Positions 1,406-31,863 of a stretch of DNA of 34,819 bases are shown in pieces; position 1 is the first letter of the stretch; each line of letters opens with the position of its first letter. The notes under the pieces were generated by a model. That model saw only the letters and a list, made by a program, of their open reading frames with translations, ran no database searches and was not told where the DNA came from. The position numbers were made by a program, and so were the translations under genes. The stretch is from an uncultured Oscillospiraceae bacterium (GTDB lineage Bacteria; Bacillota; Clostridia; Oscillospirales; Oscillospiraceae), in contig CANQZJ010000020.1 of assembly GCA_947628315.1 (NCBI GenBank), forward strand, positions 1 through 34,819, in the 5' to 3' direction.

Positions 1406-2017
1406 ATGACATACGGATATATCCGTGTATCCAGCCGGGACCAGAATCTGGACCGGCAGCGGCTCGCCATGGAGAGCTTCGGCGTGGAGGACGGGCGCGT
1501 CTACGCCGACAAGCAGTCCGGCAAGGACTTCGACCGCCCGGCCTACCGGCGGCTGCTGCGAAAACTGAAACCGGGCGACACCCTTGTGATCAAGAGCATC
1601 GACCGGCTGGGACGAAACTATGAGGAGATATTGGAGCAGTGGCGGATACTCACAAAGGAGAGGCGGGTGGCCGTCGTCGTGCTGGACATGCCCCTTCTGG
1701 ATACCCGGCGGGACAGGGACCTGACGGGGACGCTCATCGCGGACATCGTCCTGCAGCTTTTGTCCTACGTGGCCCAGACGGAGCGGGAGTTCATCCGCCA
1801 GCGTCAGGCGGAGGGCATCGCGGCGGCAAAGGCCCGGGGCGTCCGGTTCGGGCGGCGGCCATTGGAGCCGCCGGAAGGGCTGGAGGAGATGGGCGACGCC
1901 TGGGCGGCGGGGGCCATCTCGGCCCGGGCCGCGGCAAAGCGCCTGGGCGTGTCCCGGCAGACCTTCATCCGGTGGATGGAACGCCGCCGGCCGGCCCCGA
2001 AAGTAGAGGTTTTGTGA
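1406..2017 (+). CDS. small serine recombinase (resolvase/invertase family), probable switch enzyme for the adjacent invertible promoter
   Basis: A 203-residue protein, close to Hin/Gin-type invertases and Tn3-type resolvases in length. The N-terminus YIRVSSRDQNLDRQ carries the catalytic serine (Ser9) and its arginine (Arg7). The conserved IDRLGR arginine motif is near residue 70, the long E-helix (QTEREFIRQRQAEG) near 130, and a C-terminal helix-turn-helix (ARAAAKRLGVSRQTFIRWM) about residues 170-190. The start is ATG 1406 because AGGAGG lies 8 bases upstream at 1392-1397; a longer in-frame reading from about 1205 crosses a terminator and is rejected. A -10-like TATACT lies at 1375-1380, but no good -35 is visible. 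Its last five codons and stop lie inside the left 19-bp inverted repeat. That position, directly beside a repeat-flanked promoter, points to local DNA inversion, although resolution or control of other sites is possible. Confidence 0.92.
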   Translation: MTYGYIRVSSRDQNLDRQRLAMESFGVEDGRVYADKQSGKDFDRPAYRRLLRKLKPGDTLVIKSIDRLGRNYEEILEQWRILTKERRVAVVVLDMPLLDTRRDRDLTGTLIADIVLQLLSYVAQTEREFIRQRQAEGIAAAKARGVRFGRRPLEPPEGLEEMGDAWAAGAISARAAAKRLGVSRQTFIRWMERRRPAPKVEVL

Positions 2018-2018
2018 C
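2000..2018 (+). repeat. left 19-bp inverted repeat of the putative invertible segment
   Basis: AAAGTAGAGGTTTTGTGAC, the exact reverse complement of 2211-2229. It encodes the last residues KVEVL and the stop TGA (2015-2017) of the serine recombinase, so recombination within the repeat would leave that gene intact in either orientation. Identity stops abruptly on both sides of the 19 bases. Confidence 0.9.
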
Positions 2019-2085
2019 GGGACGTTTTTGGGCAGAGCGGAGGATCAACGCCGTGCAGAAAGTTTACATAATTTTTTTCGAACAG

Positions 2086-2119
2086 TACCAAATAAGCAAA
2101 AAAACTTACCAAATAAGCA
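2086..2119 (+). repeat. two 13-bp direct repeats spaced 21 bp (regulator site candidate)
   Basis: TACCAAATAAGCA occurs at 2086-2098 and 2107-2119, exactly 21 bases (two helical turns) apart, and the similarity continues a few bases 3'. A weak third match (TAC..AAT) lies one more period upstream at 2065. The second copy ends 7 bases before the -35 candidate, an activator-like position. The 21-bp direct-repeat spacing recalls LytTR-type binding sites, but the bases do not fit that consensus. Confidence 0.6.
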
Positions 2120-2126
2120 GAAACTA

Positions 2127-2155
2127 TTGAATTTTTAGCTGGCGTCTGATAAGCT
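2127..2155 (+). promoter_or_regulatory. promoter candidate for the polysaccharide operon
   Basis: -35 TTGAAT (2127-2132), 17-bp spacer, -10 TAAGCT (2150-2155) preceded by an extended -10 TGA. An alternative -10, TATTAT (2164-2169), has no matching -35 and would need an activator, for which the direct repeats just upstream would be suited. Transcription from here would pass the right inverted repeat and reach the first gene after a leader of about 130 nt. Confidence 0.55.
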
Positions 2156-2210
2156 CTAAATAATATTATTGTATCTGTTACGCCCGGACGGGCTCCATGG
2201 CTGAATGGGT

Positions 2211-2229
2211 GTCACAAAACCTCTACTTT
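2211..2229 (-). repeat. right 19-bp inverted repeat of the putative invertible segment
   Basis: GTCACAAAACCTCTACTTT, the exact reverse complement of 2000-2018. With flanking bases it forms an imperfect dyad at 2211-2235: arms GTCACAAAA and TTTTGTTAC (8 of 9 pair) around a 7-base centre. This is the size and shape expected for a serine-recombinase crossover site. Confidence 0.9.
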
Positions 2230-2291
2230 TGTTACCATGTTCCCGGAGATGCGGAACGAGCTGGAAAAAGATATGGCAGGCAGGAGAAGAC

Positions 2292-3173
2292 ATGTATAAC
2301 GACCGACCGGAAACAGATGAGATCGAGATCGACCTTTTGAAGCTGGGGCAGATATTGCTGCGCAAGGCCGGGGCGATCATCGCCGTCACGCTTTTGGTGG
2401 CGGCGGCCGCCTTTGGCATCAGCTATTTCCTCATCACGCCCCAGTACACCTCCACGGCCATGATGTACGTCAACAACTCCAACATCTCCGTGGGCGGGTC
2501 CTTCAGCATCTCCTCATCCGAGCTGACGGCGGCCCAGAGCCTGGTGGACACCTATGTGGTCATCCTCAAGAGCCGCACCACCCTGGAGGACATCATAGCC
2601 CGGGAAAACCTGGAATACGACTATGAAGAGCTCTATGACATGATCGAGTCCGGGCCGGTCAACTCCACGGAGATATTCGACATCAACGTCACCAGCCCGG
2701 ACCCCTATGAGGCAGAGCGCATCGCCAACACCATCGCCCAGGTGCTTCCGGAGCGCATCGCGTCCATTGTGGACGGCAGCGACGTGCGCATCGTGGACTA
2801 CGCGGTGGTGCCGTCGGAGCGGACGTCTCCCAGCTTTACGCTGAACACCGTGATCGGCGCGCTGGTCGGATTCATCGTCGCGGCGGCCGTGGTGATCCTG
2901 CGGTATCTGTTCGACGACCAGATCCATGAGGAGGGCTATCTGACCCAGACCTATCCTGACGTCCCGCTGCTGGCGGTGGTGCCGGATATGCTGGCGGAGG
3001 ACGGCGGCGGGGACAGCTACTATTCCCGCGGGCCCGCGTCCGGCGGCCGGCCCAGGCGCACCGGCGGGAGCGGACAGCCCCGCCGGCCCAAGACACAGGC
3101 CGCGCCGGCTCAAAGACGTGAGCGGATAAAGGAACAGGAAAAGGAGGGCGCAGGTCATGGCCAGGAGCGATAA
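2292..3173 (+). CDS. cpsC: polysaccharide co-polymerase / chain-length regulator (CpsC/Wzz, YveK-like)
   Basis: A 293-residue membrane protein of the Wzz family, which sets polymer length and activates the partner tyrosine kinase. There is an N-terminal acidic cytoplasmic stretch (IEIDLLKLGQILLRKAG), a first membrane helix about residues 29-50 (IIAVTLLVAAAAFGISYFLI), an extracytoplasmic domain beginning TPQYTSTAMMYV, and a second helix about residues 195-220 (LNTVIGALVGFIVAAAVVILRYL). The C-terminus is a long basic, proline/glycine-rich tail in the cytoplasm. ATG 2292 is preferred because AGGAG (2282-2286) lies 5 bases upstream; an earlier ATG at 2205 would put the right inverted repeat inside the coding region and has no SD. 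It overlaps the kinase gene by 17 bases and is the first gene after the invertible promoter. Confidence 0.9.
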   Translation: MYNDRPETDEIEIDLLKLGQILLRKAGAIIAVTLLVAAAAFGISYFLITPQYTSTAMMYVNNSNISVGGSFSISSSELTAAQSLVDTYVVILKSRTTLEDIIARENLEYDYEELYDMIESGPVNSTEIFDINVTSPDPYEAERIANTIAQVLPERIASIVDGSDVRIVDYAVVPSERTSPSFTLNTVIGALVGFIVAAAVVILRYLFDDQIHEEGYLTQTYPDVPLLAVVPDMLAEDGGGDSYYSRGPASGGRPRRTGGSGQPRRPKTQAAPAQRRERIKEQEKEGAGHGQER

Positions 3174-20233: not shown

Positions 20234-20273
20234 CGGCGAAGTGACCGTGCGAGGTGTGAATGGGGTGATATCC

Positions 20274-22283
20274 TTGAAAGCTCTTATTCTAAATTCCGGC
20301 CTGGGGCGGCGGATGGGCGTCCTGGCCTCGGAGCATCCGAAGTGTATGACGGAGCTGGGCGGCGGGGAGACGATCCTCAGCCGGCAGCTTCGGCTGCTGG
20401 CAGAGGCCGGGATCAAAGACGTCGTGATGACGACGGGATACTGCCACGAGGTGCTGGAAGGTTACTGCCGGTCCCTTGGACTGCCGGTCCGCGTCACCTG
20501 CGTCAACAACCCGGACTATGCCTCGACCAACTATATCTATTCCATTTACTGCGCCCGCGGATATCTGCGGGACGACGACATACTGCTTTTGCACGGGGAC
20601 ATGGTCTTTGAGACGCATGTGCTGGACGCGGTGCTGGCCGGCGCCGGAAGCTGTATGGCGGTCAGTTCAACCAAGCCCCTGCCGGAAAAGGACTTTAAGG
20701 CCGTCATGAGCGGCGGCCGCATCCGGAAGATCGGCGTTGATTTTTTCCGGGATGCGCTGGCGGCCCAGCCGCTGTATAAGCTGAAAAAGGCCGACTGGGC
20801 GGTCTGGCTCGACGCTGTCTGCTCTTACTGCGAAAGCGGCAGGCGGAGCTGCTACGCGGAGGACGCCTTCAACGAGGTTTCGGACAGGTGCGAAATCCGC
20901 GGACTGGACGTAAAGGACAAGCTCTGCGCGGAGGTCGATATGCCGGAGGACCTGGCCGCGGTATCGGAGGAGCTGCGAAGGGTCAACAGCCGCATTGTGT
21001 ACATGTGTTTTTCGGCGGATATCCTCCATGGCGGCCATATCGCCATCATAAAAAAGGCGGCCCGCCTGGGCAGGCTCGTCATCGGCGTGCTGTCCGATGA
21101 GGCGGTAGCAAGCTATAAGCGCTTCCCGCTGATCCCCTGCGAGGAGCGCAAGGCGCTGGTAGGGAGCATCGCCGGCGTGGCGGAGGTCGTGGAGCAGAAG
21201 ACACTGAGCTACGCGGACATGCTCCGGCAGCTCCGGCCCGCCTATGTGGTCCACGGGGACAACTGGCGGGGGGGCTTCCAGAAGCCCATCCGGGACGAGG
21301 TGATCTCCGTGCTGGCCGAGTATGGCGGCGAGCTGGTGGAGTTCCCGTATTCCGCGGATAAGAAATATGAGGAACTGGATAAGATGGGCCGGCAGCAGCT
21401 GGCCATGCCGGATTACCGCCGGGGGCGGCTGAAAAAGCTCCTGTCCATGAAGGGCCTGGTCACGGCCATTGAGGCGCACAGCGGCATCACAGGCCTTATC
21501 GCCGAGAAAACGACGGTGCTCAAGGACGGCAGGACCTTCCAGTTCGACGCCATATGGTCCAGCTCCCTGTGCGACTCCACGGCGAAAGGAAAGCCCGACA
21601 TCGAGCTGGTGGACATGACCAGCCGCCTGCGGACCGTAGACGACATCATGGAGGTCACCACCAAGCCTATCATCTTCGACGGGGATACCGGCGGGCTCAC
21701 CGAGCATTTTGTATACACGGTCCGTACATTGGAGCGCATGGGCGTGTCCATGGTCATCATTGAGGATAAAACAGGCCTCAAGAAGAACTCCCTTTTCGGC
21801 ACGGAGGTGGAGCAGACCCAGGACAGCGTCGAAGATTTCTGCGCAAAGATCGCGGCGGGAAAGCGTGCCCAAAAGACAAAGGATTTTATGATCTGCGCCC
21901 GCATCGAGAGCCTCATCCTGGAGCGGGGCATGGACGACGCGCTGACCCGCGCCCGTGCCTATGTCGGGGCGGGCGCCGACGCGGTCATGATACACAGCCG
22001 GAAGAAGGACCCGGCGGAGATATTTGAGTTTCTCAGACGTTTCCGGGAAGAGGACGGCGTGACGCCCGTGGTCGTGGTGCCTACGACGTTCAACACGGTG
22101 ACGGAGGAGGAGTTCAAAGCCCGTGGCGCGAACGTCGTCATCTACGCCAACCAGCTGACACGGGCAGGATTTCCCGCCATGCAGAACGCGGCGCGGCTCA
22201 TCCTGGAAAACCACCGGGCGAAGGAATGCGACGACATCTGCATGCCCATCCGGGATATCATAACCCTCATCCCCGAGGAGTGA
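20274..22283 (+). CDS. aepX: three-domain fusion: LicC/PntC-like nucleotidyltransferase + cytidylyltransferase-like domain + phosphoenolpyruvate mutase
   Basis: About 669 residues. Residues 1-235 are a MobA/LicC-type nucleotidyltransferase (KALILNSGLGRRMG, EHPKCMTEL, the ASTNYIYSIYCAR segment, LLHGDMVFE) of the kind that makes CMP-phosphonates or CDP-choline. Residues 240-380 are a cytidylyltransferase-like domain with HGGH at 252-255. Residues about 385-669 are PEP mutase, with the diagnostic EDKTGLKKNSLFG at 497-509 and SSSLCDSTAKG; this domain makes phosphonopyruvate, the first step of all known C-P biosynthesis. The start is ambiguous: TTG 20274 (GGGGTGAT SD, family-like MKALILNSG) or GTG 20265 (GAGGTG at 20251-20256); GTG 20241 is less likely. 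The fusion joins C-P bond formation to activation of the end product. A degraded second PEP mutase lies at 26973. Confidence 0.9.
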   Translation: MKALILNSGLGRRMGVLASEHPKCMTELGGGETILSRQLRLLAEAGIKDVVMTTGYCHEVLEGYCRSLGLPVRVTCVNNPDYASTNYIYSIYCARGYLRDDDILLLHGDMVFETHVLDAVLAGAGSCMAVSSTKPLPEKDFKAVMSGGRIRKIGVDFFRDALAAQPLYKLKKADWAVWLDAVCSYCESGRRSCYAEDAFNEVSDRCEIRGLDVKDKLCAEVDMPEDLAAVSEELRRVNSRIVYMCFSADILHGGHIAIIKKAARLGRLVIGVLSDEAVASYKRFPLIPCEERKALVGSIAGVAEVVEQKTLSYADMLRQLRPAYVVHGDNWRGGFQKPIRDEVISVLAEYGGELVEFPYSADKKYEELDKMGRQQLAMPDYRRGRLKKLLSMKGLVTAIEAHSGITGLIAEKTTVLKDGRTFQFDAIWSSSLCDSTAKGKPDIELVDMTSRLRTVDDIMEVTTKPIIFDGDTGGLTEHFVYTVRTLERMGVSMVIIEDKTGLKKNSLFGTEVEQTQDSVEDFCAKIAAGKRAQKTKDFMICARIESLILERGMDDALTRARAYVGAGADAVMIHSRKKDPAEIFEFLRRFREEDGVTPVVVVPTTFNTVTEEEFKARGANVVIYANQLTRAGFPAMQNAARLILENHRAKECDDICMPIRDIITLIPEE

Positions 22284-31825: not shown

Positions 31826-31829
31826 AAAG

Positions 31830-31859
31830 GGACCTCTTGTGTACGTACACAAGAGGTCC
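31830..31859. terminator. bidirectional terminator, perfect 30-bp palindrome
   Basis: GGACCTCTTGTGTAC (31830-31844) is followed directly by its exact reverse complement (31845-31859). The plus side is followed by TGTTTCAGTTTT; the minus side by CTTTTTATT. It lies between convergent genes 31013-31825 and 31864-32532 and serves both. Confidence 0.9.
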
Positions 31860-31863
31860 TGTT

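Follow-up and report, generated by a model that had tools for sequence, protein, structure and literature searches.

The window, that is the whole stretch of 34,819 nucleotides that was analysed, is the entire contig C20 of a host genome of 2.69 Mb that is 77% complete. It holds a gene for a small serine recombinase, followed by a short intergenic segment between inverted repeats and by a long co-directional glycan locus (Table 1).

Table 1. Features of the proposed switch and the adjoining glycan locus in the window.
Feature	Position	Strand	Basis and remarks
Small serine recombinase, resolvase/invertase type, 203 aa, proposed invertase	1406-2017	+	PF00239, E 6.5e-32
Left recombination site arm	2000-2018	+	Overlaps recombinase stop codon; core AAAGTAGAGGTTTT, core also in L081
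Invertible segment, 192 bp	2019-2210		40.6% GC; operon-side end flipped in sister species G149
Direct repeat 1, TACCAAATAAGCAAAAA	2086-2102	+	Repeat family D5; possible activator-binding site
Direct repeat 2, 94% identical	2107-2123	+	Repeat family D5; putative function as for repeat 1
Candidate outward promoter, TTGAAT-17-TAAGCT, extended -10 TG	2127-2155	+	p = 0.185, not above chance
Right recombination site arm	2211-2229	-	Repeat search
Wzz-type chain-length regulator, first operon gene	2292-3173	+	PF02706, E 8.3e-16; TIGR01006 below cut-off
Rest of co-directional glycan locus	3157-29823	+	Profile matches and names given by eye

The recombinase has the layout of the small serine recombinases, with an N-terminal resolvase domain of about 145 residues (PF00239, residues 3-146) and a short C-terminal helix-turn-helix (HTH_23, residues 171-193, E 4.5e-4, below the model's own cut-off). 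It contains the sequence YIRVSS, which we take to be the catalytic-serine motif and from which cleavage activity is predicted. The best match in NCBIfam is the Mpi family (NF009949), at 63.7 bits and thus short of the cut-off of 272, and the best solved relative is Sin (2r0q, E 4.8e-29). The host genome encodes a paralogue of 73% identity on contig C114 and four more distant matches; the genes adjoining this paralogue look phosphatase- and kinase-like by eye. The TGA stop codon of the recombinase (2015-2017) falls within the left arm of the inverted repeat, and since the arms are identical, inversion would leave the enzyme intact in both states.

The inverted repeat is a perfect match over 19 bp (AAAGTAGAGGTTTTGTGAC on the left, GTCACAAAACCTCTACTTT on the right) with 192 nt between the arms. 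The window has no other perfect 19-mer inverted pair with separate arms lying within 1 kb of each other, and none arose when the window was shuffled 30 times (mononucleotide shuffles). The other exact 19-mer inverted matches in the window belong to one palindrome (31830-31859); the perfect palindromic hairpin at 31829-31860 lies between convergent genes and is called as a terminator on both strands. As in an inverton, the inverted repeats flank a short intergenic segment, and its GC content of 40.6% is well below that of the recombinase gene (67.7%) and of positions 2230-3173 (61.9%). With up to three mismatches allowed, the repeat was found in the host genome, as far as it is complete, at no place beyond the two arms, so that no multi-site regulon is seen. 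Among 42 genomes of the genus the segment was found in its own genome only, and the species yielded no flipped strain. The direct repeats within the segment measure 17 bp each and lie 21 bp apart, the second ending 3 bp before the -35 element of the promoter candidate.

The Wzz gene starts 62 bases past the right arm. The locus that it opens includes a tyrosine autokinase, a CpsB phosphatase, Wzy (16532), a flippase (18806) and a PEP mutase fusion (20241), and further two LicD proteins, transketolase halves, Fe-ADH and a TPP decarboxylase; sortase-like, LCP and VanZ-like proteins, sugar-nucleotide enzymes and glycosyltransferases were named by eye only. Wzz, flippase, Wzy and PEP mutase are thus found together in one co-directional locus, as befits a Wzx/Wzy locus with phosphonate genes. 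The combination of PEP mutase, LicD and decarboxylase presumably yields a phosphonate-decorated glycan, as we judge from what is known of the pathway. In the fusion protein (20241-22283, 680 aa) PEP mutase is linked to an NTP transferase and a cytidylyltransferase-like domain, and to go by these domains phosphonate synthesis and activation may be combined in one polypeptide. Counted on both strands, terminator-like sites number 24 between 2200 and 20000 (17.8 ± 4.2 expected) and 20 between 20000 and 34819 (13.5 ± 4.1 expected); the corresponding counts of promoter-like sites are 21 (12.2 ± 2.9) and 14 (9.7 ± 3.1). Because both kinds of site are somewhat above expectation, a single 27-kb transcript is possible, and internal promoters are possible too. 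The initial annotation had described an exact 19-bp repeat bracketing 192 bp of AT-rich DNA, a recombinase gene ending inside the left arm and the first gene of a 27-kb glycan operon behind the right one, and this picture of the locus was borne out.

Evidence for inversion comes from a sister species, an Oscillospiraceae MAG (G149, Lapin-022__bin25; locus L041 on contig C38, CANRNF010000038.1), in which the recombinase and Wzz genes are 91.6% and 90.9% identical in DNA to those of the window. The repeat is exact at both arms in G149, and a backwards control pattern gave one chance match there at up to three mismatches. The 58 segment bases beside the Wzz gene of G149 align in reverse to the recombinase-side end of the window's segment with a score of 30, reached in none of 2000 shuffles, whereas the same bases taken in the window's orientation score 12 (p = 0.965). 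Judged by these 58 bases, the segment is therefore oriented oppositely in the two species; the remainder of the G149 segment is on no matching contig.

The contig ends of G149 may also reflect inversion. The outermost 77 bases of contig C38 consist of the 58 segment bases and the 19-bp repeat, and contig C120 ends 1 base past its own repeat. At three further contig ends of this assembly the terminal 77 bases recur exactly in another contig (C106 overlaps C96 end to end, and C106 and C115 match the interior of C96), and further overlaps between G149 contigs measure 92, 44 and 20 bases, the last being the repeat plus one base. With k = 77, these breaks are the graph forks expected if both orientations were present in the sample. 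Co-existing orientations could thus account for the breaks, and a second, unbinned copy could be another source of the forks. For the other Wzz heads of G149 (on C4, C106, C115 and C96) the stretches retrieved contained no match to the recombinase, and directly before the heads there was no switch-like pair, which means that glycan expression need not depend on a switch; two weak 14-match pairs lying far from a recombinase were set aside. On C106, C115 and C96 (L145-L147) similar Wzz heads stand, without a switch, behind genes that look like helicase-associated-repeat genes by eye. A further copy of the recombinase, with 98% identity over 151 aa, lies at the far end of C38 together with the STAS gene, the operon being between it and the switch; it is cut short by an apparent transposon. 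The copy next to the switch is intact and has 90.6% identity.

The recombinase belongs to a large family. Matches at E <= 0.001, distant serine recombinases included, occur in 100 of 149 related genomes, and close relatives at E <= 1e-60 in 54 of the 149 (counted by hand, own genome included). A species-wide scan kept 80 loci, some of which are the same places. From 111 located loci 98 were kept after removal of identical proteins and of loci with fewer than 250 bases around the stop codon; 42 of them have an inverted pair with at least 18 matches near the stop and with centres at least 80 apart, and the window is included in both numbers. Most loci come from Clostridia-type records. A site pair is also present at L100, which is from a Selenomonadaceae MAG, and L114, likewise with a site pair, is from Merdibacter massiliensis. 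Around the stop codon, 28 of 98 loci have an inverted 24-mer pair that reaches 19 or more matches, compared to 5 of 96 stretches upstream of the gene and 1 of 98 shuffled sequences; the other 70 loci have no inverted pair at this level. Direct pairs at the same level, which partly palindromic sites give as well, occur in 14 of 98 loci. The contrast shrinks at 17 matches (61/98 inverted, 35/96 upstream, 5 shuffled, 37 direct).

Typical site cores are AAAGTACACCTTT and GTGTACGTTCC, and a Peptococcaceae MAG (L081) has the same core as the window. Inspection by eye gave no single motif for the whole family; the sites differ and follow the recombinase. This relation was quantified with 38 of the 42 loci, L026, L028, L066 and L086 being dropped as they have no site-like core; at L062 the best pair reported by the program is not the family-type site, which lies within that pair. 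Site similarity correlates with identity of the DNA-binding domain at r = 0.42 (permutation p = 0.0005) and with identity of the catalytic domain at r = 0.18 (p = 0.007), shared ancestry contributing to both values. The co-variation of the sites with the DNA-binding domain, together with their adjacency, makes the neighbouring recombinase the likely actor.

Flipped states are also observed within the family. An all-against-all comparison of the sequence around and after the stop codon gave opposite-strand segment matches of at least 60 bp in ten locus pairs (L004/L042, L013/L059, L017/L018, L018/L019, L018/L020, L023/L062, L062/L083, L062/L078, L078/L085 and L105/L117), compared to none in the 400 bp upstream of the gene and one at +400 to +800. 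These pairs form about five groups of related loci and are not ten independent events. In seven of the ten the direction of the flank is kept, as seen from a same-strand match. Matches on the same strand cross the point directly behind the stop codon in 23 cases; one of them (L013/L059) is the flank of a flipped pair, and the rest are mostly pairs in one orientation. An absence of flipped relatives had been set beforehand as the outcome that would speak against inversion, and the comparison of related genomes found flipped relatives, with both orientations observed between the two species as well as in the family. Contig ends within 300 bp were considered as a family-wide sign of mixed orientation, but with 7 downstream and 2 upstream among 111 loci they are too few, and two of the seven cut the recombinase gene itself. 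At five loci (L013, with recombinase stop at 2139 and left site at 2082-2110, and L039, L043, L051 and L059) the left site precedes the recombinase stop. There the C-terminal tail is coded in the segment and would change on inversion, and feedback on the enzyme is possible.

The promoter candidate of the window consists of a -35 element at 2127-2132 and a -10 element at 2150-2155, with a start expected near 2162. Promoters were scored with custom weights and compared to mononucleotide shuffles of each segment. By this measure 29 of the 42 segments contain a promoter at p <= 0.05, often with a TTGACA-like -35, a 17-bp spacer and a TATAAT-like, extended -10, as for sigma-A; 21 of these face inward to the recombinase, which would correspond to the off state, and eight face outward. 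Six of the flipped pairs have both partners in the set of 42 segments (L013/L059, L023/L062, L062/L083, L062/L078, L078/L085 and L105/L117), and in each of them the promoter directions are opposite. The window is one of the 13 segments without such a promoter, and a stricter sigma-70 scan of positions 1200-2400 found none. Yet the candidate faces the operon, has the spacing and the extended -10 of the family, and by eye resembles the L013 promoter in its -35, its spacing and its extended -10. Its score of 16.5 can be compared to 14.9 in the opposite direction, 14.7 for the stretch from the right arm to Wzz and 13.9 for the operon-facing sequence of the flipped state in the sister species. The rightward promoter of the initial annotation is therefore present as a candidate, but not above chance, and the claim that the operon is ON in this orientation is weakened, since it draws on this candidate and on the promoter polarity across the family. 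The two direct repeats just upstream would suit an activator-dependent promoter.

The genes behind the family's switches are diverse and often surface-related. Of the 40 loci that list a first ORF past the switch, 36 have it directed away from the switch. Pfam was run on this ORF for 30 of the 42 loci, some matches being below cut-off only and five ORFs matching no Pfam family. BspA-like leucine-rich proteins were found at L037, L114 and L117, a pilin-type N-methylation motif at L013 and L059, SpaA at L089, NPCBM at L080, Listeria-Bacteroides repeats at L078, transposases at L026 and L034, a dicarboxylate transporter at L042, and further families elsewhere. The first ORF at L074 is the AAA-type autokinase of a glycan operon, so that a switch of this type precedes a second glycan operon, L074/L151. 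The cassettes at L051, L086 and L110 precede Eco57I-type methylases that PADLOC places with the type II methyltransferases, which suggests phase-variable restriction-modification; the L086 pair has no family-type core. At L166 (G022:C12) a PEP mutase lies about 9 kb past a recombinase relative; this case was not counted because other genes, by eye flagellin-, CsrA- and transposase-like, lie between. The flagellin- and CsrA-like genes near the PEP-mutase/decarboxylase pair are hinting at phosphonate-modified flagella. Because the same cassette precedes so many kinds of gene, the window switch is one member of a wide family, and the suggestion in the initial annotation of a distinct system for phosphonate glycans was too narrow.

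In view of the above, we propose a self-contained phase-variation switch, to which we assign a probability of roughly 0.8. The recombinase would bind the two inverted sites, cut both, and rejoin them with the 192-bp segment reversed. In the window's orientation an outward promoter in the segment would drive the 27-kb phosphonate-glycan operon, probably aided by an activator acting at the direct repeats; after inversion the promoter would aim back at the recombinase and the operon would be off. That the element is invertible is well supported, and its role as the ON/OFF promoter of the glycan operon is moderately supported. Some room is left for a scenario in which the segment flips, but the window's orientation is the OFF state, or inversion changes read-through or an RNA element rather than a promoter. 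The chance-level score of the window promoter would fit such a scenario, as would the action of Rho on the flagellar switch of C. difficile (PMC7446863). Since the best promoter of the segment nevertheless faces the operon, with a higher score than any of the three alternatives and a likeness to the L013 promoter, we regard this scenario as unlikely.

The segment could also be flipped by a recombinase encoded elsewhere, given that the C114 paralogue and the more distant matches could act in trans and that Mpi, a master invertase, works on dispersed sites (PMC5903667). With the repeat found at this locus only, as far as the host genome is complete, sites that co-vary with the DNA-binding domain of the adjacent enzyme, and the same arrangement of gene plus site recurring in other genera, a distant actor seems quite unlikely. 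Another option is that the repeats form a res-like site of a mobile-element resolvase, which would resolve or excise DNA without inverting a promoter. It would account for a plasmid resolvase, Sin, as best solved relative and for partly palindromic sites with direct pairs in 14 loci, but not for segments that are flipped between relatives, including the sister species, and that have same-strand flanks in seven of ten pairs, for the excess of inverted over direct pairs, or for the enrichment of promoters in the segments; it is very unlikely. That the repeat is an inactive product of chance or history is scarcely credible: the evidence in the window itself is a single contig, yet no shuffle reproduced the pair and both arms are exact in the sister species, with the segment flipped.

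Comparison of the proposed self-contained switch with characterized systems shows partial similarities. Sin, which among solved structures is nearest in sequence, is a resolvase of plasmid dimers acting at a res site, whereas flipped states are seen here. Hin of Salmonella is a small serine recombinase that switches a promoter by inversion between short inverted sites, and it uses a Fis-bound enhancer. The hin gene lies inside its own invertible segment (PMC5903667), in contrast to the window gene, which is outside the 192-bp segment and overlaps one of the sites. Small inversions are common in the Clostridia, which made up 14 of the 15 inversion-positive Firmicutes samples in the survey of PMC5903667. 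In this class, RecV of Clostridioides difficile acts on invertible switches before surface genes (cwpV, flagellar and others), but this enzyme, which has a role at several loci, is a tyrosine recombinase (PMC5903667). A recurrent Clostridia family with a nearby invertase is also represented by inverton group 139 of a defined gut community; unlike the window switch it is tied to a tyrosine-type recombinase, and the word serine is absent from the main text of that report (PMC11892184). The recombinases that these two sources name for clostridial switches are tyrosine-type enzymes. The cps1 inverton of Akkermansia adjoins a capsule operon and goes with an ON/OFF capsule, much as proposed here for the glycan operon, but it belongs to another phylum and has another motif (CGGATT..AATCCG), and the main text of the report does not use the word recombinase (PMC13343947).

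Self-contained serine-invertase switches form a widespread family, mainly in Clostridia, to which the window switch belongs. Searches of CC-licensed papers in PMC gave no description of such a family, which does not establish its absence from print. On balance we think it probable that these are one-gene switches placed before unrelated surface, pilus, glycan and restriction-methylation genes in Clostridia and beyond, with DNA-binding domain and sites diverging together, which would allow several independent switches to function in one genome. The breadth of the family points to a large and little described layer of on/off control in Clostridia, and at the window locus such a switch would turn surface-sugar genes on and off in single cells. 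As each recombinase stands beside its own sites, the family also offers ready recombinase/site pairs for studying DNA recognition by serine invertases. Control of surface glycans by such enzymes is best known from Bacteroides. Mpi of B. fragilis, whose family is the best NCBIfam match of the window recombinase, is similar in that surface polysaccharide operons have promoters flipped by a serine-type invertase. The regions inverted by Mpi are scattered and number at least thirteen, polysaccharide loci making up seven of them (PMC5903667), whereas the window recombinase has a single adjacent site pair and would represent a dedicated version of this type of control in front of a phosphonate-glycan operon.
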